A DNA stretch of 43,016 nt from an uncultured Pelagibacteraceae bacterium. GTDB taxonomy: Bacteria; Pseudomonadota; Alphaproteobacteria; Pelagibacterales; Pelagibacteraceae. Below, one piece after another: positions 2 to 16,957 of the stretch; position 1 is the stretch's first letter; the number at the start of each line of letters is the position of its first letter. Below the pieces are notes generated by a model that saw only the letters and a program-made list of their open reading frames with translations, had not been told where the DNA came from and ran no database searches. A program made the translations under genes and the position numbers. The stretch spans positions 1-43,016 of the forward strand of contig CABYPZ010000008.1 of assembly GCA_902521005.1 (NCBI GenBank). Reading direction: 5' to 3'.

Positions 2-850
2 GAAGAAGAAGAAGTTTTTATAAACTATAATGAATTTATTGCTAATTTACTAAATAAATCCTTTTTTAGTGATAAAAAACTTCTAATATTTTCAAGAACT
101 TCAGAAAAAATTCTTAAATTTATTGAAGAAATTATCTTAAAAGAGATAAAAGATTTAACAATTATTATTAATTCCAAGACTTTAGAAAAAAAATCAAAAC
201 TTCGAACATTCTTTGAAAAAGACGAGAATTGTGCATGCATTCCATTTTATGAAGATGATGAGAGGACACTACATCAAATATCCTCTAATTTTTTTAGTGA
301 ACATAAAATTTCTATTTCGAGAGAAATGATAAATCTAATAATCGAAAGATGTAGAGGAGATAGACAAAATCTTTTTAATGAAATCGAAAAAATTTCATCA
401 TTATTATTAAGTAAAAAAAAAATCACAACCGAAGATATAATTAAACTAACTAATTTGGCAGAGAACTACAGTATCTCAGAACTAGCAGATAACTGTCTTG
501 CAAAAAATACTAACAAAGTGAATAAAATTCTTAATGAAAATAAGTTTTCTTCTGATGAGTGTATTCTAATTTTAAGAACATTACTTTTTAAAACAAAAAG
601 ATTACTCGAACTTTCTAGGAGGAATATTCAAAATAAAAATGTCGAACAAACAATATCATCATCTAGACCTCCCATTTTTTGGAAAGATAAACAAATTGTA
701 AAAAATCAAATTATGAATTGGAGAGTAAGTGAAGTGGAAAATTTAATAATTAATATTAAAAATTTAGAAATTGATGTTAAAAAACATGCATCTTGCTCAC
801 TAAATCTAGTCTTAGATTTTATTTTAAATACTGCGAGTGCTAATAATTAG
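2..850 (+). CDS. holA: DNA polymerase III delta subunit, 5'-truncated by window edge
   Basis: Delta subunit of the clamp loader, which opens the beta sliding clamp during chromosome replication. The frame is open from base 2 to the stop at 848-850 (282 residues visible), and the family is usually about 340 residues, so roughly the first 60 are outside the window. An internal Met at 326 is not the start, because the same frame runs upstream without a stop and reads as delta-like sequence (LLIFSRTSEKILKFIEE). The part following that Met (ISREMINLIIERCRGDRQNL) matches the delta AAA+ lid region, and the C-terminal part has the all-helical collar character. The gene ends tail to tail with parB and overlaps it by 11 bases. 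In many alphaproteobacteria holA sits beside parB, which supports the call. Confidence 0.88.
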   Translation, partial: EEEEVFINYNEFIANLLNKSFFSDKKLLIFSRTSEKILKFIEEIILKEIKDLTIIINSKTLEKKSKLRTFFEKDENCACIPFYEDDERTLHQISSNFFSEHKISISREMINLIIERCRGDRQNLFNEIEKISSLLLSKKKITTEDIIKLTNLAENYSISELADNCLAKNTNKVNKILNENKFSSDECILILRTLLFKTKRLLELSRRNIQNKNVEQTISSSRPPIFWKDKQIVKNQIMNWRVSEVENLIINIKNLEIDVKKHASCSLNLVLDFILNTASANN

Positions 851-1691
851 CCTTAATAATCATTAATAAATGATTGAGTTGATCGTTGTCCCTATACTCA
901 AACAATACACTTCCTGAATTATTCTTTTTGCTATAAATTTTCACTCTTAGGCCAGTTTTACTCTCAACATTTTCCTCCAAATTAATTATATTTGGATCCC
1001 TAGATTTTGATTTAGAATTTTTTCTAAATTTCAAAACTCTAATAAGGTTCTCAGCTTGTCTTACTGATAGTTTTTTATCTACAATTTTTTTTGCAAGAAA
1101 ATTAGCATTTTCCATGCCCACTAATACTTTTGCATGACCTTGCGTTAATTTTTTAGTTTCTATTAAATTTTGAACCTCGTTAGGAAGAGATAGCAATCTT
1201 AAAGAATTTGATATATGTGAACGACTCTTTCCGATAAATTTAGAAACTTTTTCTTGGTCATAATCAAATTCTTTAATTAATCTTTGATAACCCATTGCTT
1301 CCTCTATTGGATTCAAATCGGATCTTTGAACATTTTCCACGATAGCAAATTCTAATGATTTTAAATCATCTACATCAATCTCAACAATTGGGACTTCATG
1401 AAGACCTGCATTTTGTGCTGCTTGCCACCTTCTTTCTCCAGCAACTATTTCAAATTTGTCATTTTCAGTTTTTGATTTTCTTACAATAATCGGTTGAATA
1501 ATTCCTCTTTCTTTGATCGAATTTGTAAGTTCTTCTAACGCGTCCTTTTCAAAATATTTCCTTGGTTGAAATTTATTTTTAGTTATAGAACTAATAGATA
1601 TTTTATTTTTAGAGACTCTAATTTCGTTATCTCCTATCAAAGAAGAAAGGCCTCTACCAAGACCCTTTTTTGCTTTAAATGGATTCATCAT
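840..1691 (-). CDS. parB: Chromosome partitioning protein ParB
   Basis: ParB binds parS, spreads as a CTP-dependent clamp and works with ParA to segregate replicated origins. At 283 residues it has the usual chromosomal ParB length. Visible are the N-terminal LGRGLSSLIG segment typical of alphaproteobacterial ParB, the GERR motif at residues 85-88 (CTP-binding/clamp region), ENVQRSDLNP at 119-128, and a helix-turn-helix around 147-167 for parS recognition. The start overlaps the parA stop as ATGA; a second Met follows immediately, so either could be used. Two parS-like sites lie within 2 kb (3063-3078, 3395-3410). Confidence 0.95.
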   Translation of the reverse strand: MMNPFKAKKGLGRGLSSLIGDNEIRVSKNKISISSITKNKFQPRKYFEKDALEELTNSIKERGIIQPIIVRKSKTENDKFEIVAGERRWQAAQNAGLHEVPIVEIDVDDLKSLEFAIVENVQRSDLNPIEEAMGYQRLIKEFDYDQEKVSKFIGKSRSHISNSLRLLSLPNEVQNLIETKKLTQGHAKVLVGMENANFLAKKIVDKKLSVRQAENLIRVLKFRKNSKSKSRDPNIINLEENVESKTGLRVKIYSKKNNSGSVLFEYRDNDQLNHLLMIIKANY

Positions 1692-2488
1692 GCTGCGCTT
1701 TCAACAATTTTATCTTGGTTCAAAAATTCTTCTGTGAAACCGAAGTAAGCTTTACTTCCTGGACATGATTTATCATATAGCAAAACTGGTACACCATGTG
1801 ATGGTGCTTCGGATAATCTTACGTTTCTAGGAACCACTGTTCCATAAACTTTTTCCTTAAAATAGTTTCTAGCCTCGCTCTCAACCTCTGCTGAAAGTTT
1901 ATTTCTCCTATCATACATTGTAAGAAGTATTCCTCTTATCTCTAATGATGGATTAAGATTAGTTTTGATCCTTTCAATTGTCTTCATAAGCTGAGTTAAG
2001 CCTTCTAATGCAAAAAATTCTGTTTGAAGAGGAACTACAAGGGCGTCTGATGCTACAAGAGCCATGATTGTGAGTAGACTTAACGAAGGAGGGCAATCAA
2101 GTAAGATATAATCATAGGATGCTCTAGAACTATTTAAAATAGCGGTTAATTCGTCTTTCAATTTAAAGGCTCTTCTGCTATCTCCAGCCGTTTCTACTTC
2201 TAATCCGGACAAATCGACATTAGATGTTATCAAATTCAAATTTTCAAAGCTTGTTGACTGTATTACTTCTTCTATTTTCTTATTTCCATTAAGAACATTA
2301 TAAATTGTCATGTCAGAACTTGAAGTGTTCGATAATCCTAGTCCAGTTGTTGCATTACCTTGAGGGTCAAGGTCAATTACTAAAACCTTTTTTCCTTTCA
2401 TGGATAATCCTGCTGCAAGATTTATTACAGTTGTTGTTTTGCCTACTCCTCCTTTTTGATTTATGATTGAAATAATTTTATTATCCAT
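1688..2488 (-). CDS. parA: Chromosome partitioning ATPase ParA (Soj)
   Basis: ParA-type ATPase that forms the nucleoid gradient used to move ParB-parS complexes. It has 266 residues. The deviant Walker A motif KGGVGKTT is at residues 12-19, with the signature lysine 12 and P-loop lysine 17. IDLDPQGNAT follows at 38-47 and the Walker B-like LLDCPPSL lies near 130. There is no N-terminal DNA-binding extension, as expected for a chromosomal (type Ib-like) ParA. It overlaps rsmG by 8 bases and parB by 4, so mnmG-rsmG-parA-parB reads as one translationally coupled operon. Confidence 0.96.
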   Translation of the reverse strand: MDNKIISIINQKGGVGKTTTVINLAAGLSMKGKKVLVIDLDPQGNATTGLGLSNTSSSDMTIYNVLNGNKKIEEVIQSTSFENLNLITSNVDLSGLEVETAGDSRRAFKLKDELTAILNSSRASYDYILLDCPPSLSLLTIMALVASDALVVPLQTEFFALEGLTQLMKTIERIKTNLNPSLEIRGILLTMYDRRNKLSAEVESEARNYFKEKVYGTVVPRNVRLSEAPSHGVPVLLYDKSCPGSKAYFGFTEEFLNQDKIVESAA

Positions 2489-3125: not shown

Positions 3126-4993
3126 GCTATATGCTTAATAGACTTTCTTTTGAGATGAGACAACAAAATATATACTGCTGCTGGAGTTATTCCATCAATT
3201 CTTAACGCTTGACCCATAGTTTTAGGTTGAATTTTCTTGAATTTTGACTTTACCTCATTTGATAGGCCTGAGAAATTATCATAGTTTATGTTTTTTGGGA
3301 TAATGAGATTTTCATCTCTTTTGAATGCCAATATATCTGCATTTTGCTTCTTTAAATACCCTTTGTAATGAGAATTTATCTCTAATTGCTCATCTATTTC
3401 ACGTGAAACATACTTAATTTCAGGCCATATTTCCCTAATTTTGCACATGTTTACATCCTTTTGTCCTAAAACTTGGCTAGCTGAACGAGTTATTCCATCT
3501 TTAGCTATATTTATTCCATATTTAGAAATTTTTGTAGGTGTAATATTTAGTTTATCCATCATTTCTTGCATTTCAGTCAACTCTTTAGATTTTTGTTTAA
3601 ATAATTCTGACCTTTTATATGAAATTAAACCTATTTTTATTCCTTTTGCGGTAAGCCTTATATCTGCATTATCAGATCTTAATGATAATCTATATTCAGC
3701 TCTTGAGGTGAACATTCTATAAGGTTCTGCAACTCCCTTGGTGACCAGATCATCTATCATTACTCCAATATATGCATCTGATCTGTCTAGTATAAATGGC
3801 TCCTCACTCTTAATAGAGAGGCCGGCGTTTATTCCAGCTATCAATCCTTGAGCTGCAGCCTCTTCATAACCTGTCGTTCCATTGATTTGTCCTGCTAAAT
3901 ACAGATTTTTGATTTTTTTAGTCTCTAATGTCAAGAAAAGCTCCCTTGGATCGACATAATCATACTCAATAGCGTATCCAGGCCTTATTATTTTAACATT
4001 TTCTAAACCATTGATTTTACTGCATATTTCTTGCTGCACTTCTGAAGGCAATGAAGTTGATATACCATTCGGGTAAATAGTATGATCGTTCAACCCTTCA
4101 GGCTCCAAAAATATTTGATGTCTCTCCTTGTCTGAAAATTTTTTAATCTTATCCTCTATTGATGGACAATACCTAGGTCCAACACCTTTGATGTTACCGG
4201 AGTACATCGCACTTCGTTTAATATTTTTAGAAATTATCTTATGAACAGTCTCATTTGTATACGTCATACGACATGAGATTTGTTGATTTAAATTTTTTTT
4301 AGTAAGGAAAGAAAAAAAATAAGGATCATCATCTGCGAACTGTTCTTCCAAATTTTCAAATTTGATCGTACGAGCATCTAGTCTTGGAGGTGTCCCTGTC
4401 TTCAGTCTTCCAATTCTAAAGTCATACTTTTCTAATTGCTCGCTCAAACCAGTTGAGGGTTTTTCATTAAATCGTCCTGCGGGAGTCCTCTCTTCACCAA
4501 TATGTATTAATCCATTTAAAAAAGTGCCAGTAGTAAGTATTACCTTGTTTGTTTTAATTTTTTTTCCTGATTGAGTTATAAATCCATTTATTTCATTTTT
4601 TGAAAATATAAACTGAATTACAGGATCAGAAAATATGCTTAAATTACAATAGTTTACAAGTTTTTCTTGCATATATTTCTTATATAATGATCTATCACTC
4701 TGTGTTCTTGGTCCTCTTACGGCAGGTCCTCTGCTTCTATTTAGTAATCTAAATTGGATTCCTGACTTATCAGCAACTTCACCCATTAAACCATCTAATG
4801 CATCTATCTCCCTAACTAAGTGTCCTTTGCCTAATCCACCTATAGCAGGGTTACATGACATCTCGCCAATTGTATCGATGTTGTGAGTATATAAGGCTGT
4901 ATTTAGACCTAGCCGTGCTGATGCAGCTGCTGCTTCACATCCAGCATGGCCACCACCGACTACTACAACATCAAAATATAAATCCATTTTCAT
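3122..4993 (-). CDS. mnmG: tRNA uridine-5-carboxymethylaminomethyl modification enzyme MnmG (GidA)
   Basis: FAD-dependent partner of MnmE in forming (carboxymethyl)aminomethyl-uridine at tRNA wobble position 34. It has 623 residues, the standard length. The FAD dinucleotide-binding loop GGGHAG is at residues 13-18, followed by the family motifs [15 protein letters not shown] and [10 protein letters not shown] and the C-terminal helical domain ([19 protein letters not shown] region). The first Met (4993) and a Met two codons on are both possible starts. MnmE is encoded immediately upstream on the same strand across a 116-base gap. The 3' part contains the second parS site. Confidence 0.97.
3395..3410. 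promoter_or_regulatory. parS centromere-like site 2 (inside mnmG)
   Basis: TATTTCACGTGAAACA matches the parS consensus at 15 of 16 bases (G to A at position 2) and keeps the central TTTCACGTGAAA palindrome. It lies 332 bases from site 1, in the mnmG codons for VSREI. I noticed no other CACGTG-centred palindrome of this type in the window, so the two sites form a local pair beside parAB. Confidence 0.85.
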
Positions 4994-10680: not shown

Positions 10681-11675
10681 TAAATATTTTTTCTAGAAAT
10701 TAAATACTTTAAGAGTTTGATATGATCATCACTATCATTAAGACAGGGCACCATCTCAAAATTTAATCCACCTGATTTTAAAAAAGAATCTTTTGCTTGA
10801 ATAGATATTTCTTCCAGCGTTTCTACACAATCAGATGAAAACCCTGGACTTATAACTAAAATATTCTTTTTTCCTTCCTCTGGCAATTTTTCAATTGTTT
10901 TGTCAGTGTAAGGTTGCAACCATTCCTGTGGTCCAAATCTAGATTGAAAAGTAGTTTTTATTGGTATTTCTTTGAATTTTTCAGATAACAATCTAGTAGT
11001 TTTATGACAATAACAATGGTAGGGATCTCCTTTATCAAAATATTTTTTTGGAATACCGTGATAAGATGCAATTACCAAGTCGGGTTTCCAACTAATTTCA
11101 TTTATTTTTTTTCTCAAACTGTTAATCAAAGCATCAATATAAAGTGGTTCTGACTCATAATGAGGTATAATTTGTAAGTTGGGTTGCCATCTCATCTTCA
11201 TTAAAGTTCTATAAACTTCGTCACATACTGTTGCTGTAGTGGCTGCTGCATATTGAGGATATAAAGGTAAAACAATTAGATTTTCACATCCATTTTCTTT
11301 GAGACCATGAATTTTAGACTTAATGCTAGGATTTCCATAACGCATAGCATAATCAACTAATAAATTTTTATTTCCTATCTCTTTAGTAAGTTTGTCTGCT
11401 TGTTTTAGTGTATAATATCTTAAGGGGGACATGTTTTCATCTTTCATCCAAATCTCTTTATAAGCTTTTGCTGTTTTAGAAGGCCTTAAATTTAAAATGA
11501 ATAAATTAAGAATAATCTGCCATAATATTGGGTTTACCTCAATAACTCGTCTATCAGATAAAAATTCTTTTAAATATTTTCTTATGTCAAACCAACTTGT
11601 TGAGTCCGGTGTACCAAGATTAACAATTAAAACTCCTGTTTTACCAAATTGTACTTTTGGATGGTCTTCAATCAT
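10680..11675 (-). CDS. hemH: Ferrochelatase
   Basis: Inserts Fe2+ into protoporphyrin IX to make protoheme. It has 331 residues. Motifs are LIVNLGTPDS (17-26), the metal-site histidine in ASYHGIPKKY (H206), YHCYCHKTT (219-227), FQSRFGPQEWLQPYT (243-257) and SDCVETLEEI (281-290), which carries the acidic residues of the active site. The start overlaps the hemE stop by 4 bases (ATGA), and hemJ follows with a TAATG overlap, so the three heme genes are translationally coupled. Confidence 0.97.
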   Translation of the reverse strand: MIEDHPKVQFGKTGVLIVNLGTPDSTSWFDIRKYLKEFLSDRRVIEVNPILWQIILNLFILNLRPSKTAKAYKEIWMKDENMSPLRYYTLKQADKLTKEIGNKNLLVDYAMRYGNPSIKSKIHGLKENGCENLIVLPLYPQYAAATTATVCDEVYRTLMKMRWQPNLQIIPHYESEPLYIDALINSLRKKINEISWKPDLVIASYHGIPKKYFDKGDPYHCYCHKTTRLLSEKFKEIPIKTTFQSRFGPQEWLQPYTDKTIEKLPEEGKKNILVISPGFSSDCVETLEEISIQAKDSFLKSGGLNFEMVPCLNDSDDHIKLLKYLISRKNI

Positions 11676-12676
11676 TTAAAATCTTTTACAGTGTTAACTA
11701 AATATTTAACCATATCAGGATTTGTTTCCGGCAAAACACCATGCCCTAAATTAAAGATATAGGGATGATCTCTAAAAATTTCCATATATTTAATTGCATT
11801 TCTTTTAACATTATCTTTGTCAGTCAAAAGTACTTTGGGATCTAAACCACCTTGTACAGGGATTTCTATATTTTTTACAATTTCTTTAGGATCTACACTG
11901 TAATCAATATTGACCACATCTGGCTTAACATTATTAACAAACTTTTTGTAATCTTTTATTTCTCTAGGAAAACATATCACAGGTACGTTTAAAGTTTTGA
12001 CAAAATTTACTAGATCTAAAGTTGGTTTATATATTAAGAAATCTAATTTTTTTTCTTCTACCAGACCTGCCCAACTATCAAAAATTTGAATAATTGTTGC
12101 GCCACTGTTGATTTGATTTTTTATATGTAATTTTAAAAATTTAACTATGGTTGTAAGTAATTTTTCAATTAATATTTGATCATCAAAAAAATCTTTCTTT
12201 AGTTCTTTTTTTGGTGAAAGTTGATTTATCATATAAACTAAGATTGTCCACGGTGCCCCAACGAAACCGAATAAATCTTTTTCTTGTAGTAAATTATCTT
12301 TAGAAGAAATATCTATTAGTTTATAGACAGGATCTAATTTGTTTGTAAATTCATTTTCAGTTACTTTTAAAATATCATCAACATTTAATTTATCTAATCT
12401 AGGTCCAAAATTCTTTTCAAATTTAACGTTTTGACCCAAACCATAAGGCAACATCAAAATATCAGAAAATATAATTGCTGCATCTAAATTAAATCTTTTT
12501 AGTGGTTGAAGTGTTATTTCGGAAGATAATCTTTCATCTAAACACAATTTAACAAAGTCGGGATTTTTGGATCTTATCTCTCTAAACTCAGGCAAATATC
12601 TTCCAGCCTGTCTCATTAACCAAATAGTATTAATTTTTGTATCTTCATTTTTTATACATTTTTGAATTGGACTCAT
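11672..12676 (-). CDS. hemE: Uroporphyrinogen decarboxylase
   Basis: Decarboxylates uroporphyrinogen III to coproporphyrinogen III in heme synthesis. It has 334 residues. The N-terminal signature WLMRQAGRYLPEFREIR (19-35) carries the substrate-binding Arg residues; AAIIFSDILMLPYGLG and the C-terminal FNLGHGVLPETNPD are also typical. It is the first gene of the hemE-hemH-hemJ operon and diverges from ppsR across a 283-base non-coding gap. In Caulobacter and several other alphaproteobacteria hemE borders the replication origin. Confidence 0.97.
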   Translation of the reverse strand: MSPIQKCIKNEDTKINTIWLMRQAGRYLPEFREIRSKNPDFVKLCLDERLSSEITLQPLKRFNLDAAIIFSDILMLPYGLGQNVKFEKNFGPRLDKLNVDDILKVTENEFTNKLDPVYKLIDISSKDNLLQEKDLFGFVGAPWTILVYMINQLSPKKELKKDFFDDQILIEKLLTTIVKFLKLHIKNQINSGATIIQIFDSWAGLVEEKKLDFLIYKPTLDLVNFVKTLNVPVICFPREIKDYKKFVNNVKPDVVNIDYSVDPKEIVKNIEIPVQGGLDPKVLLTDKDNVKRNAIKYMEIFRDHPYIFNLGHGVLPETNPDMVKYLVNTVKDFK

Positions 12677-12959
12677 AATTAATAGTAATAGTAATTATAT
12701 TATTAGATTTATATCTTGTTAATTATCTTTATTAATTACTATTAACAGATTACTAACTAAATATTCACATTTTTAAGATATAATTAATTAAAGTAAATGT
12801 GATATTTTCGATAAATATTAGTAATTATAGGAATTTCTGTATAAAAATATTAACCATGTTTAATTATGTTAATAATTCAGCGTTTATACTTAAAAAACAT
12901 TAAAAACTACATTTTTAGAAATAACTATATATTATTACAATATTATAAACATTTTATAC
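12677..12959. other. Candidate chromosomal origin of replication (oriC) between hemE and ppsR
   Basis: A 283-base gene-free gap of only 41 G+C bases by hand count (about 14.5%). Seen: divergent flanking genes; mostly minus-strand genes to the left and plus-strand genes to the right; five copies of TAGTAAT or its complement; the DnaA-box-like ATATTCACA at 12761-12769 (one mismatch to TTATNCACA); and TTAACCAT at 12850-12857, which equals the CtrA half-site of Caulobacter. Known: the Caulobacter origin lies between hemE and the homologue of Rickettsia RP001, which belongs to the ppsR family. Inference: this is oriC. Caveat: no perfect DnaA box was found. Confidence 0.62.
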
Positions 12960-13784
12960 ATGAGTTCTAAACATCATATTTATTTAATTTCTGACTCTAC
13001 AGGAGAAACAATAGATAGAATTTTTCTCGCAATAAAAGCGCAATTTCAAGGTTTTCAATATGAGGATCACCAATACTCATTCACTAGAACTGAAAATCAA
13101 ATTAAAAAGATTTTAGAATTAGCAGAAAAACACCAACATCCAATAATTCTGTATACTATAGTGGACAGTGAATTAGCTAACTTTTTAGAATATAATTCTA
13201 AAAAATTAAATATACCATGCTTTGGAGTTTTAGGAAAACTTATAGAAAATTTTTCACAAATTATAAAAAGAACGGCAACTCACATTCCAAGTGCTCAGTA
13301 TTTATTGAATGATGAATATTATAAAAAAGTTGAAGCAATACAATTTACAATGGATCATGATGACGGAAACTCTTTAGATGATATTGAAAAATCTGATATA
13401 ATATTGCTTGGGGTTAGTAGAACTAGCAAAACCCCAACCGCAATATATTTAGCGAACCGAGGGTTTAAAACTACAAATATTCCTTTGGTTAATGAAAAAT
13501 CTATTCCTGATTTTCTTAAAAAAAACCCAGATAAAAGGTGTGTTATTGGTTTAACATTAGAACCTGTAAGATTAGTGGAACTGAGAAAAAATAGGATGAA
13601 TTCTTTGAAAGAAAACCACAGCATAGACTACACAAACCAACAAAAAGTAGAACTTGAAATTCAAAATGCAAAAAAAACATTTAAAAAATATCAATGGCCT
13701 GTAGTTGATGTCACGAGGAAGTCAGTAGAAGAAACTGCAGCTTCAATAATCAAAATTTATGAAATTAAAAGAGAAAATAGATAA
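12960..13784 (+). CDS. ppsR: Bifunctional kinase/pyrophosphorylase, PPDK or PEP synthase regulatory protein (DUF299)
   Basis: Members of this family phosphorylate, using ADP, and dephosphorylate a threonine next to the catalytic His of pyruvate phosphate dikinase or PEP synthase, switching gluconeogenic flux. It has 274 residues, the usual length. Visible are the N-terminal YLISDSTGETIDR and the family P-loop-like motif GVSRTSKTP at 151-159. Whether the target is PPDK or PEP synthase cannot be told from this window, and neither target gene is present. It is the first plus-strand gene after the candidate origin and overlaps maf by 26 bases. Confidence 0.93.
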   Translation: MSSKHHIYLISDSTGETIDRIFLAIKAQFQGFQYEDHQYSFTRTENQIKKILELAEKHQHPIILYTIVDSELANFLEYNSKKLNIPCFGVLGKLIENFSQIIKRTATHIPSAQYLLNDEYYKKVEAIQFTMDHDDGNSLDDIEKSDIILLGVSRTSKTPTAIYLANRGFKTTNIPLVNEKSIPDFLKKNPDKRCVIGLTLEPVRLVELRKNRMNSLKENHSIDYTNQQKVELEIQNAKKTFKKYQWPVVDVTRKSVEETAASIIKIYEIKRENR

Positions 13785-14364
13785 GATAATTTTAGCTTCA
13801 CAGAGCGTAGTGAGACAAAAAATTCTACTTGATCACAACATTAATTGTGATGTGGTTCCATCCAAGTTAGATGAAGAGCCAATTAAAGAAAAATTAATAA
13901 TTAATAATATTGATCCAGATAAAATATCTCAAAATTTAGCTTCTCTGAAAGCAAAAAAAGTGAGCAATAAGTTTTTTGATAGATTGGTTTTAGGCGCAGA
14001 TAGTGTAATTAATCTTAATGGTGAACTGATATCTAAACCATCCAATAGAAAACAAGCTATGGAAATTTTAAAGAAATTAAATGGAAAAATACATCATTTA
14101 ATTAGTTCGGTTAGTATATTTAAAAATGGAAAAGAAGTCTGGAAATATACCGATAAAGCCTCATTAACTATGAAAAATTTTACCAATGATCAATTAGAAA
14201 ACTATTTATCAAAAATAAGCGATAGAGATTTATATGCTTACAATGTTTATCAAATAGAAGGACAGGGGAGACAGCTTTTTCAAAAGATTGAAGGGGACAA
14301 AAATACAGTGATGGGGCTGCCGGTAAGTAAAATTAAGGAATATATAAATAGTTTAAAATGTTAA
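13759..14364 (+). CDS. maf: Maf-family nucleotide pyrophosphatase
   Basis: House-cleaning nucleoside triphosphate pyrophosphatase acting on non-canonical or modified nucleotides. It has 201 residues. The N-terminal IILASQSVVRQKIL (residues 10-23) is the Maf signature, LGADSVI carries the conserved Asp, SKPSNRKQAMEILKKLNGK follows, and the C-terminal GQGRQLFQKIEGD with MGLPV completes the fold. The only in-frame ATG gives a 26-base overlap with ppsR. A 49-residue membrane ORF starts within its last codons. Confidence 0.9.
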   Translation: MKLKEKIDKIILASQSVVRQKILLDHNINCDVVPSKLDEEPIKEKLIINNIDPDKISQNLASLKAKKVSNKFFDRLVLGADSVINLNGELISKPSNRKQAMEILKKLNGKIHHLISSVSIFKNGKEVWKYTDKASLTMKNFTNDQLENYLSKISDRDLYAYNVYQIEGQGRQLFQKIEGDKNTVMGLPVSKIKEYINSLKC

Positions 14365-14507
14365 TTCTTGTTTGGTTTATAGTTTGTATAATATTTGCTT
14401 TTGTGCAGTATATCATACCTAATTCTGGTCATTCCTTAGAACTATTTGCCTTATTATCTGCAATTGCCTTGTTTATATTAAATAGATTAACTAGAAAAAC
14501 CAAATAA
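14358..14507 (+). CDS. Small two-helix membrane protein, 49 residues
   Basis: A short open frame that fills nearly the whole maf-aroE gap. It begins with an ATG overlapping the last 7 bases of maf and stops at 14505-14507, just 4 bases before the aroE ATG. The product starts MLILVWFIVCIIFAFVQYI, a membrane helix, followed by a short polar turn (PNSGHSLE), a second hydrophobic stretch (residues 30-41) and a basic tail NRLTRKTK. That topology, the tight packing and the lack of any other use for the gap argue that it is real. I do not recognise a family. Confidence 0.6.
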   Translation: MLILVWFIVCIIFAFVQYIIPNSGHSLELFALLSAIALFILNRLTRKTK

Positions 14508-14511
14508 TAAA

Positions 14512-15309
14512 ATGAAAAAATTTTTAGTAATCGGGAATCCAATTCAACATTCGTTGTCCCCAAAACTTCATAACCACTGGTTAAAGAAAAATAAAATCGA
14601 TGCAATTTATGAAAAAAAATTAGTAGATGATCATAATATAAAAGAAATTATTACTGGAATAAAAGAAAATAAAATTCAAGGAATTAACATTACAGTACCT
14701 TTTAAAAAAAAAATTATAGAATTCGTTGATGAATTAAGTGATGAAGCAAAAGAAACACAATCTGTGAATACAGTATATAAAAACGATAACAAATTGATCG
14801 GACATAATACTGATATCTCTGGATTTGAATTAAGTTTACGACATATAAAATATAACGTTAATGAAAGGAAAGTTTTTATACTTGGATCAGGTGGAGTAGT
14901 TTCTTCAATCGTTTTAGCTTTAAAAAAAATGAAGCCATCGCAAATTATATTGAGCAATAGAACCCAATCAAAAGCTGAAAAAATTAAAGCAATGTTTAAA
15001 GGACTAGAAATAGTAAAATGGGGGGAAGTTCCAGATTTTGATCTAATTATTAACGCAACAAGTTTAGGTTTAAATGAAGCTGATGATTTGGATTTAGATT
15101 ATGAAAAAATAGGAGAAAACAAACACTTTTATGATGTAATCTACAATCCAAAAGAGACAAACTTTCTTAAAAAAGGAAAGCTTTATGGGCACTCAACTAC
15201 TAACGGTAAAATGATGTTTATTTATCAAGCACATCAATCATTTACTATATGGCATAAAATTATGCCCAAGATAGATGATGATACAATAAAGCTTATAGAA
15301 AATGATTAA
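14512..15309 (+). CDS. aroE: Shikimate 5-dehydrogenase
   Basis: NADPH-dependent reduction of 3-dehydroshikimate to shikimate in aromatic amino acid synthesis. It has 265 residues. The substrate-binding serines lie in NPIQHSLSPKLHN (S14, S16), the catalytic lysine in ITVPFKKK (K65), and Asp101 in HNTDISGFE. The NADP loop LGSGGVVSS is near residue 124, and NGKMMFIYQAHQSF closes the fold. It overlaps coaE by 8 bases. The order maf-aroE-coaE-dnaQ is standard in alphaproteobacteria. Confidence 0.95.
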   Translation: MKKFLVIGNPIQHSLSPKLHNHWLKKNKIDAIYEKKLVDDHNIKEIITGIKENKIQGINITVPFKKKIIEFVDELSDEAKETQSVNTVYKNDNKLIGHNTDISGFELSLRHIKYNVNERKVFILGSGGVVSSIVLALKKMKPSQIILSNRTQSKAEKIKAMFKGLEIVKWGEVPDFDLIINATSLGLNEADDLDLDYEKIGENKHFYDVIYNPKETNFLKKGKLYGHSTTNGKMMFIYQAHQSFTIWHKIMPKIDDDTIKLIEND

Positions 15310-15889
15310 AATTGCAATCCTGGGAGATATTGGAGCTGGGAAAACTTTTGTTTCAAAATTATTTGGTTTTCCAGTTTTTAATGCTGATAAAGAAGTAAAA
15401 AAAATTTATAAGAGTAATAATAAATGTTTTAATAAACTTAAAAAAAAATTTCCAAACAAACAAATTTTCTATCCAATAAATAAAAAAGTTTTAATTGATA
15501 TTATTATAGAAAAAAAACAAAATTTAAAAATTATAAATGAAATTGTTCATCCAATTGTTAGAGGAAAAATGAAATCCTTTCTGAAAAAAAATAAAAATAA
15601 AAAAGCCATTGTTCTTGATATACCCTTATACTTAGAGAATAAGTTAAATAAAAAAAGAGATTATCTAGTTTTTGTAAATGCTAAAACTGGAGATATAAAT
15701 AAAAAAATAAGTCGAAGAAAGACCAGTAATAAATTAATAAAAATACTTAAAAAATTCCAAATGAGTAATAAAATTAAGAAGAAAAAAGCAGATTTTATAA
15801 TTAACAATAACTTTAGAGAATTAAATGTTAAAAGAAATGTTAGAATTATTAAATCAAAAATATTAAAAAATGAGAGAAATTATACTTGA
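15302..15889 (+). CDS. coaE: Dephospho-CoA kinase
   Basis: Last step of coenzyme A synthesis: phosphorylation of the ribose 3'-OH of dephospho-CoA. It has 195 residues. P-loop GDIGAGKT is at residues 8-15, followed by FPVFNADKEV (the conserved Asp after the P-loop) and VLDIPLYLENKL (substrate segment). The N-terminal stretch is slightly shorter than usual and the protein is extremely Lys/Asn/Ile rich, in line with AT-driven drift. It overlaps aroE by 8 bases and dnaQ by 20, so the trio is coupled. Annotation rests on P-loop, length and synteny together. Confidence 0.87.
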   Translation: MIKIAILGDIGAGKTFVSKLFGFPVFNADKEVKKIYKSNNKCFNKLKKKFPNKQIFYPINKKVLIDIIIEKKQNLKIINEIVHPIVRGKMKSFLKKNKNKKAIVLDIPLYLENKLNKKRDYLVFVNAKTGDINKKISRRKTSNKLIKILKKFQMSNKIKKKKADFIINNNFRELNVKRNVRIIKSKILKNERNYT

Positions 15890-16538
15890 TACAGAGACAA
15901 CCGGGTTGTCAGTAAAAGAGGGACATAGAATAGTAGAAATTGGTTGTATTGAAATTGAAAATTATTTACCTACAAAAAAAATCTTTCATTGTTATTTAAA
16001 TCCAGAAAGAAAGGTTTCACAAAAAGCACTCGAAGTTCACGGTTATACAGATGAATTCCTTGCCGATAAAAAAAAATTTATAGATATAGCTGAAGAATTT
16101 TTAGATTTTATAAAAGAAAAAAGGATAATTATTCATAACGCAGAGTTTGATATTGCACATTTAAATCATGAATTAGAAATAGCTGGTAAAGGCAAAATAG
16201 ATATCAAGAATACTCTAGATACTTTAGAGGTAGCTAGAGATAAATTTCCAGGATCTGGTGCCAGTCTTGATGCCTTATGTAAAAAATTTAGAATTGATAA
16301 TTCGAAAAGAGAAAAACATACTGCCTTAATAGATTGTGAATTATTGTACAAAGTTTACATCAATCTATTCAATCAAAAAGAACCGAGTTTAGATTTCAGA
16401 AGTGAGAATGAAAAAGTATTAAAATTTGATAAAACAGGAAGCAAAGAATACTTCAAAGGCTTAGTTGTCCCATCTTCTGAAGAATTAAATGATCATAAAA
16501 ATTTTATAAAAAATTCTCTTAAAAAAAATAATTTTTAA
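15870..16538 (+). CDS. dnaQ: DNA polymerase III epsilon subunit (3'-5' proofreading exonuclease)
   Basis: Proofreading exonuclease of the replicative polymerase. It has 222 residues. DEDDh active-site residues are visible: D7 and E9 in ILDTETTGL, an Asp in HNAEFDIAHL near residue 95, and His with Asp in EKHTALIDCE near 150. The C-terminal tail (about 175-222), which binds the alpha subunit, is divergent. Translation begins inside coaE. It is convergent with secB and overlaps it by 4 bases. Confidence 0.95.
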   Translation: MREIILDTETTGLSVKEGHRIVEIGCIEIENYLPTKKIFHCYLNPERKVSQKALEVHGYTDEFLADKKKFIDIAEEFLDFIKEKRIIIHNAEFDIAHLNHELEIAGKGKIDIKNTLDTLEVARDKFPGSGASLDALCKKFRIDNSKREKHTALIDCELLYKVYINLFNQKEPSLDFRSENEKVLKFDKTGSKEYFKGLVVPSSEELNDHKNFIKNSLKKNNF

Positions 16539-16957
16539 TTTTGTCTTGAATTATATAATTCATTGAAATCTATTTTTTTATTTGGCTTAGGCTCTGGATA
16601 ACCTGAGTTGACTACCAATTTAAAAAATGTTTTTTCAATGTCTGAATAAATTTTATTTTGTAAGTCACAAAGAATAATTTTCTCAATTTCGTTTTTTTCC
16701 TTTAAGTCATCGTCGATTTTAATAACAGTGGCAAATATTATTTCAAAGTAAGATTTTTTTTCATTTTTATTTGGGTCTGATAAAGATAATTTAGTATTAA
16801 CTTCTATAACTTTATCTTTTACCGCAATAGAATTTATATCAATATTAAAATTATATTTAGATATATAATCCTTAACAAAGATATATGTTTCAATGTTGGG
16901 GGTTTCTGCTGAAACATCTTTTATAAATCTTGCTAGAATTTTATATTTTTCAGTCAT
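16535..16957 (-). CDS. secB: Protein-export chaperone SecB
   Basis: Tetrameric chaperone that keeps pre-proteins unfolded and hands them to SecA. It has 140 residues, slightly short for SecB. ILARFIKDVSAETPN (7-21) matches the N-terminal SecB signature, and SYFEIIFATVIKI with the family's acidic character fits the beta-sheet core. The C-terminal helix is short. It lies 2 bases from fxsA on the same strand, the usual dnaQ-secB-fxsA context in alphaproteobacteria. Confidence 0.9.
   Translation of the reverse strand: MTEKYKILARFIKDVSAETPNIETYIFVKDYISKYNFNIDINSIAVKDKVIEVNTKLSLSDPNKNEKKSYFEIIFATVIKIDDDLKEKNEIEKIILCDLQNKIYSDIEKTFFKLVVNSGYPEPKPNKKIDFNELYNSRQN

Follow-up and report, generated by a model that had tools for sequence, protein, structure and literature searches.

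The hemE/ppsR intergenic gap as a probable replication origin in a SAR11 bacterium

The gene-free gap between hemE and ppsR, at positions 12677 to 12959 of a contig from a Pelagibacteraceae (SAR11) bacterium, is very probably the chromosomal origin of replication (oriC) of that organism. It is best described as a hemE/ppsR origin of the alphaproteobacterial kind with a probable basal unwinding system (BUS). A first-pass annotation had proposed this identity. Box density, coding polarity, inversions and a conserved module, mostly from relatives, now support it, along with the location of the gap, its box and trio architecture, and its uniqueness across the whole genome of a relative.

The gap and its gene neighbourhood

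The window, meaning the whole stretch of 43,016 nucleotides that was analysed, is contig C8 of a 1.0-Mb assembly that comprises 33 contigs and is 86% complete; dnaA of the source genome lies on a different contig. The ppsR protein of the window shares 97% identity with its counterpart in Pelagibacteraceae isolate AG-916-I17 and 59-72% with those of other Pelagibacteraceae, and the window is therefore assigned to SAR11. Gene order along the window is parB, parA, gidB, gidA, trmE, and, after further genes, rho, hemJ, hemH, hemE, the gap, ppsR, maf, aroE, coaE, dnaQ and a secB-like gene. The principal features are as follows.

840..2488, minus strand: parB (840-1691; Pfam ParB_N, HTH_ParB, ParB_C) and parA (1688-2488; AAA_31/ParA)
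3395..3410: parS, TATTTCACGTGAAACA, within the 3' part of the gidA coding sequence, the sole copy in the assembly
11672..12676, minus strand: hemE, left boundary gene (TIGR01464, 302.9 bits, at its cut-off)
12677..12959: putative oriC, the hemE(-)/ppsR(+) intergenic gap, 283 bp, 14.5% GC, size and blocks conserved in the family
12960..13784, plus strand: ppsR (DUF299, COG1806), right boundary gene (PRK05339, 300 bits)

The length and base count first reported for the gap (283 bases, 41 of them G or C) are exact, and the model scores above bear out hemE and ppsR as its divergent neighbours. Coding direction switches at the gap as described, with genes on the left nearly all on the minus strand and those from 12960 to 16538 on the plus strand. 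The parS site, which had been placed about 9.5 kb away, is 9.3 kb from the gap; its pattern matches once in the 1.0-Mb assembly, and a reversed control has no match. The same pattern finds no match anywhere in the complete relative G003 (1,199,990 bp, analysed in full), though parA and parB are present there.

No ORF-free stretch of the window is longer than the gap; the next measures 147 bp. In a window of 28.5% GC overall, segments of 283 bp as AT-rich as this occur at just two places, the gap and a spot near 29.9 kb. In G003, the hemE/ppsR gap has the lowest GC of all gaps of at least 200 bp. Two side observations concern the right flank. The second longest ORF-free stretch is the maf-aroE gap (14365-14511, 147 bp), and the SecB-like protein encoded at 16535-16957 scores 39 bits against an NCBIfam SecB cut-off of 143, as a diverged SecB.

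The first-pass annotation had suggested comparing the gap among relatives for conserved blocks. Among 53 aligned family gaps, length stays within 261-294 bp, and specific sequence blocks are conserved as well as size. Compared with its nearest relative, the gap agrees at 279 of 283 bases, with none of the four changes inside a box or trio, whereas hemE and ppsR match at 151 of their 167 four-fold degenerate sites (16 differences). The gap is thus more conserved than those sites (Fisher p = 8e-5) and is therefore under constraint. The inverted repeats found look like AT-rich chance matches plus box pairs.

DnaA boxes and DnaA-trios

Boxes were counted as matches to the published DnaA box, TTATNCACA, with at most one mismatch, a definition independent of our alignments. 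For alignment, each of the 53 gaps was anchored on the word near hemE that best fits TGTKRATAA, which is a DnaA box in reverse complement. Classical DnaA boxes had been described as nearly absent. This holds for exact copies, of which the window's own gap has none, but not once a single mismatch is allowed, when four are present against 0.7 expected (p = 0.008). The 53 family gaps average 3.57 boxes per gap against 0.78 expected, and the count exceeds that of composition-matched simulated sequence in 53 of 53. Genome-wide box density was measured in the complete relative G003, whose gap, with 5 boxes against 0.35 expected, is the top 283-bp window of the entire chromosome. As judged from sequence, the putative DnaA boxes of the gap are present but AT-drifted (TTATTAACA) and arrayed.

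12680..12706, plus strand: DnaA-trio run TAA TAG TAA TAG TAA TTA TAT TAT TAG, presumed to be the unwinding element too; period-3 TA in the homologous block
12717..12725, minus strand: box 1, TAATTAACA, putative DnaA box 10 bp from the proximal trio, placed by anchored alignment; 2 mismatches to TTATNCACA
12739..12747, plus strand: array box CTATTAACA, +22 from box 1; 51% of relatives have a box with at most one mismatch at +22
12750..12758, plus strand: degenerate array position TTACTAACT, +33 from box 1; 51% of relatives have a box at +33, the window's own copy being degenerate
12761..12769, plus strand: array box ATATTCACA, +44 from box 1, 1 mismatch to TTATNCACA; 36% of relatives have a box at +44
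12836..12844, minus strand: possible DnaA box TTATACAGA, 1 mismatch, position not conserved
12867..12875, minus strand: putative DnaA box TTATTAACA, 1 mismatch; 29% of relatives have one on this strand about 93 bp upstream of ppsR
12943..12951, plus strand: ppsR-proximal putative DnaA box TTATAAACA, 1 mismatch; 44% of relatives have a plus-strand box 17 bp upstream of ppsR

The 53 aligned gaps share a fixed module in which TAG/TAT period-3 repeats (DnaA-trios) are followed by a DnaA box and then by head-to-tail boxes 11 bp apart. Box 1 has the family consensus TTATYMACA. The array consists of 9-bp sites with 2-bp spacers on the plus strand, one box per 11 bp, and the ppsR-proximal plus-strand box lies 14-17 bp upstream of ppsR across the aligned gaps.

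A strict BUS-type search, requiring at least three consecutive TA[AGT] including a TAG together with a box of at most one mismatch, gave a match at box 1 in about 20 of the 53 relatives; it found none at box 1 in G003 or in the window's own gap, and a test of period-3 phase was used for that reason. Columns -19 to -5 of the aligned gaps contain a period-3 TA[GT] run, with TA at 72% in one frame and at 13% and 10% in the other two; a control stretch has no period-3 TA phase. The first five trios of 12680-12706 are unmatched within the window, neither strand of which has another series of five or more TA[AGT]. The window's own copy has TAT TAT TAG 10 bp from box 1, with two mismatches in box 1 and one trio out of pattern.

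A leave-one-out position weight matrix (PWM) of the module gives the gap in the G003 genome 50.7 bits, against 10.2 for the next site. A profile trained only on more distant loci still ranks the gap first in G003 (16.4 vs 7.3). In the window, the leave-one-out PWM gives 37.3 bits at the box 1 site, and the next best match scores -0.4. For 72 separately fetched loci, a few of them possibly from genomes already used, every best same-strand match falls 230-250 bp before ppsR. A composition-corrected model, R1, returns the origin as top match in 7 of 10 genomes (two of them in the training set) and misses the copies in genomes of genus g9. When R1 was built without the window's own copy, that site earned only 8.0 bits in its own genome, below chance matches. 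The window's module is therefore a weak member, among the more degenerate copies of the family, and its identity rests on position, homology and the trio run.

DnaA is present (TIGR00362, 471 bits), and its C-terminal domain retains RPRQ and NRDHTTV, with the RDHTT recognition motif intact. In E. coli DnaA, the RPRQ and NRDHTTV regions read the box. No CtrA scores above the curated cut-off in 11 complete relatives or in the source assembly, while one control genome passes. The gap contains one TTAAN7TTAA, although CtrA and IHF motif counts are uninformative at such AT content; neither an IHF consensus (WATCAN4TTR, WATCAN5WTR) nor GANTC, the CcrM site, occurs in it. Since CtrA sites are variable or absent in Rickettsiales origins (PMC1914354), they are not an obligatory feature of a hemE/COG1806-type origin.

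Chromosomal location and relation to neighbouring genes

Because the source assembly is in 33 pieces, the tests of skew and polarity used relatives alone. GC skew in relatives bottoms out in a broad trough, from -33 to +28 kb, which in G003 spans about 60 kb and includes the gap. The raw minimum was rejected as a pin-point for the origin because the trough is too broad, and polarity, strand-corrected skew and inversions were used instead. Directly opposite the gap in G003 is 667 kb, and the cumulative GC-skew maximum, at 675,249, falls 8 kb from that antipode. In or beside this maximum is a 461-bp ORF-free stretch, G003:C1:675193-675653, a candidate terminus region. As an independent check on the terminus, dif was sought; no convincing site was found in G003, and none is recognisable at 675193-675653, a result in line with the report of P. 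ubique without dif/Xer (PMC2731167). In strain NP1, whose ori was placed by GC skew only, GANTC methylation shows a steady gradient between ori and ter (PMC9516812), which supports a single bidirectional origin.

The first-pass annotation had named dnaA as an example of where a skew minimum or coverage peak might lie instead. An origin adjoining dnaA, as in many bacteria, with the gap merely a conserved divergent promoter, now seems very improbable. In the seven genomes measured, dnaA is 62-72 kb from the gap and not adjacent to the box cluster. It consistently borders that broad skew trough, and its upstream gap in G003 is AT-rich too (272 bp, 19.5% GC), but the boxes there number two in G003 and none in the window's own genome, against five and four in the hemE/ppsR gap. 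The leading-strand share of coding DNA in G003 peaks, at 0.642, with the origin set at the gap and is 0.626 near dnaA. The strand-corrected skew signal is weak in relatives; coding-strand-corrected GC3 skew in G003 has its best switch at +10 kb and leaves dnaA (-63 kb) about 3 log-likelihood units worse. Corrected third-position AT skew is flatter, and its best switch, at +65 kb, differs from the gap by no more than 2 units.

Bacterial chromosomes in general show inversions that are symmetric about the origin. Compared with G003, relatives G005 and G009 (genera g5 and g9) have 115-116 genes per 200 kb mirror-inverted, about a median axis of +6 to +7 kb, and G040 (genus g12) has 53 genes mirror-inverted; across the three genomes the axis is +5 to +9 kb from the gap. 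Through these inversions dnaA moved from -63 to +70/+72 kb, and so changed side in g5 and g9. The parS site shifted from about -9 to +17/+20 kb; ppsR and the gap upstream of it remained near the mirror axis. A side observation in G009, G005 and G040 (loci L112-L151) is that an 18-kb core around ppsR, about -3 to +15 kb, keeps its orientation with both flanks mirror-inverted, which implies that two or more nested inversions occurred, their axes almost coincident and close to the origin.

Equally slight is the likelihood that the gap is no origin but a regulatory region, in which DnaA or another protein controls transcription of hemE and ppsR. Divergent start codons do flank the gap on both sides, and PMC3193534 describes Caulobacter DnaA as a transcription regulator. 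Module or trio-box sequences, however, are retained beside whichever neighbour remains. In G009, hemE, hemH and hemJ are gone from the locus and rho adjoins, but ppsR retains the module upstream, as at the other g9 loci (L175-L181), where hemE is not beside ppsR. Conversely, ppsR was not found in the 30 genomes searched of sister family f58; just upstream of hemE, most loci of that family (L218-L230) have TATATATA followed by trios, for instance TAGTAGTAGTAGTTG, and next CC and TGTG, in sequences of the type TATATATA-TAGTAGTAG-CCTGTG. The module belongs to neither gene. A promoter would not be marked by period-3 trios to one side of a single box, and the evidence of polarity and inversions on location also argues against a purely regulatory gap. 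The g9 arrangement in G009 indicates that the origin has lost part of its adjoining haem gene block.

That the gap is a neutral low-GC spacer whose alignment reflects shared descent is hardly credible: chance TTAT-like words do arise in AT-rich DNA, and SAR11 genomes are about 29% GC, but conservation above four-fold sites refutes neutrality at the level of sequence constraint, and both the box excess over simulation in every family gap and the fixed 11-bp phasing stand against it.

Other Alphaproteobacteria often carry, in the hemE/ppsR gap, TGTGGATAACGGGGAT and TAG/TTG/TGG-rich DNA on the hemE side. Matches of 12-14 out of 14 to TGTGGATNNCGGGGAT occur in 12 of 27 class-level gaps but in 1 of 270 simulated ones, mostly with trio-like DNA on the hemE side. 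A formal period-3 count on the class set gave no clear phase, and some TGTGGATNNCGGGGAT matches are on the opposite strand. These sequences suggest a class-wide module at hemE/ppsR across Alphaproteobacteria, with the formal test weak.

Known origins, proposed mechanism and significance

The hemE/COG1806 location is already known, experimentally in Caulobacter and by prediction for Rickettsia and relatives (PMC1914354). What marks the lineage is that its box has drifted toward A + T, that its array has an 11-bp period and that CtrA is lacking. Like Cori of Caulobacter crescentus and the predicted origin of Rickettsia prowazekii (PMC1914354), the SAR11 locus combines the same flanking genes and orientation with an AT-rich gap, DnaA boxes and parAB-parS close by. 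It differs from that type in having no CtrA ortholog over the cut-off (11 complete relatives and the source assembly), no IHF consensus, a shorter gap (261-294 bp vs >400 bp) and boxes drifted to TTATTMACA.

The BUS is defined in the literature by consecutive NAN trios no more than 16 bp from a DnaA box, the spacer peaking at 10-13 bp (PMC8287927). The period-3 TAG/TAT run of SAR11 is like the known BUS of DnaA box plus DnaA-trios (PMC8287927, PMC6669920) in lying on the expected side of the box with a spacer of about 10 bp. It differs in that its trios, known here from sequence, are TAG/TAT mixtures with almost no GC cluster; the window's own copy departs further, with its one irregular trio and weak box 1. 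The low-affinity array of E. coli oriC has weak boxes 2 bp apart (PMC6070618), and SAR11 likewise has weak boxes 2 bp apart beside a stronger anchor box, but its array has three head-to-tail positions of an AT-rich variant and no strict boxes of the R2/R4 type.

DnaA binding, unwinding and actual initiation at the gap are what we infer from these features. DnaA would bind box 1 (12717-12725) and, cooperatively, the weak head-to-tail boxes at +22, +33 and +44. A DnaA-ATP oligomer would then grow from box 1 toward hemE onto the plus-strand TAG/TAT trios (12680-12706) and pull the AT-rich DNA apart, so that helicase could load and two forks leave. The boxes toward ppsR (12867, 12943) may be extra DnaA-loading or regulatory sites, and parAB-parS, 9-12 kb away, would segregate the new origins. 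The odds seem even that an ancestral unwinding module (DnaA-trios, CC, TGTGGATAA, CGGGGAT) was kept across Alphaproteobacteria and in SAR11 drifted to TGTKAATAA plus TTATTAACA arrays, giving a CtrA-free origin whose DnaA accepts A for C at the sixth box base.

SAR11 is among the most abundant bacterial groups of the sea. Studies of its growth in situ rely on GC skew or coverage minima to infer where ori and ter lie (PMC9589681, PMC9516812), and an incomplete literature search found no SAR11 origin defined at base level. The module is easy to overlook because its sites have drifted toward A + T. Skew is weak in SAR11 genomes, and a base-level origin gives peak-to-trough growth estimates a fixed anchor. 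The gap also offers a short DNA target for asking how a streamlined, CtrA-less cell starts replication with AT-drifted DnaA boxes.
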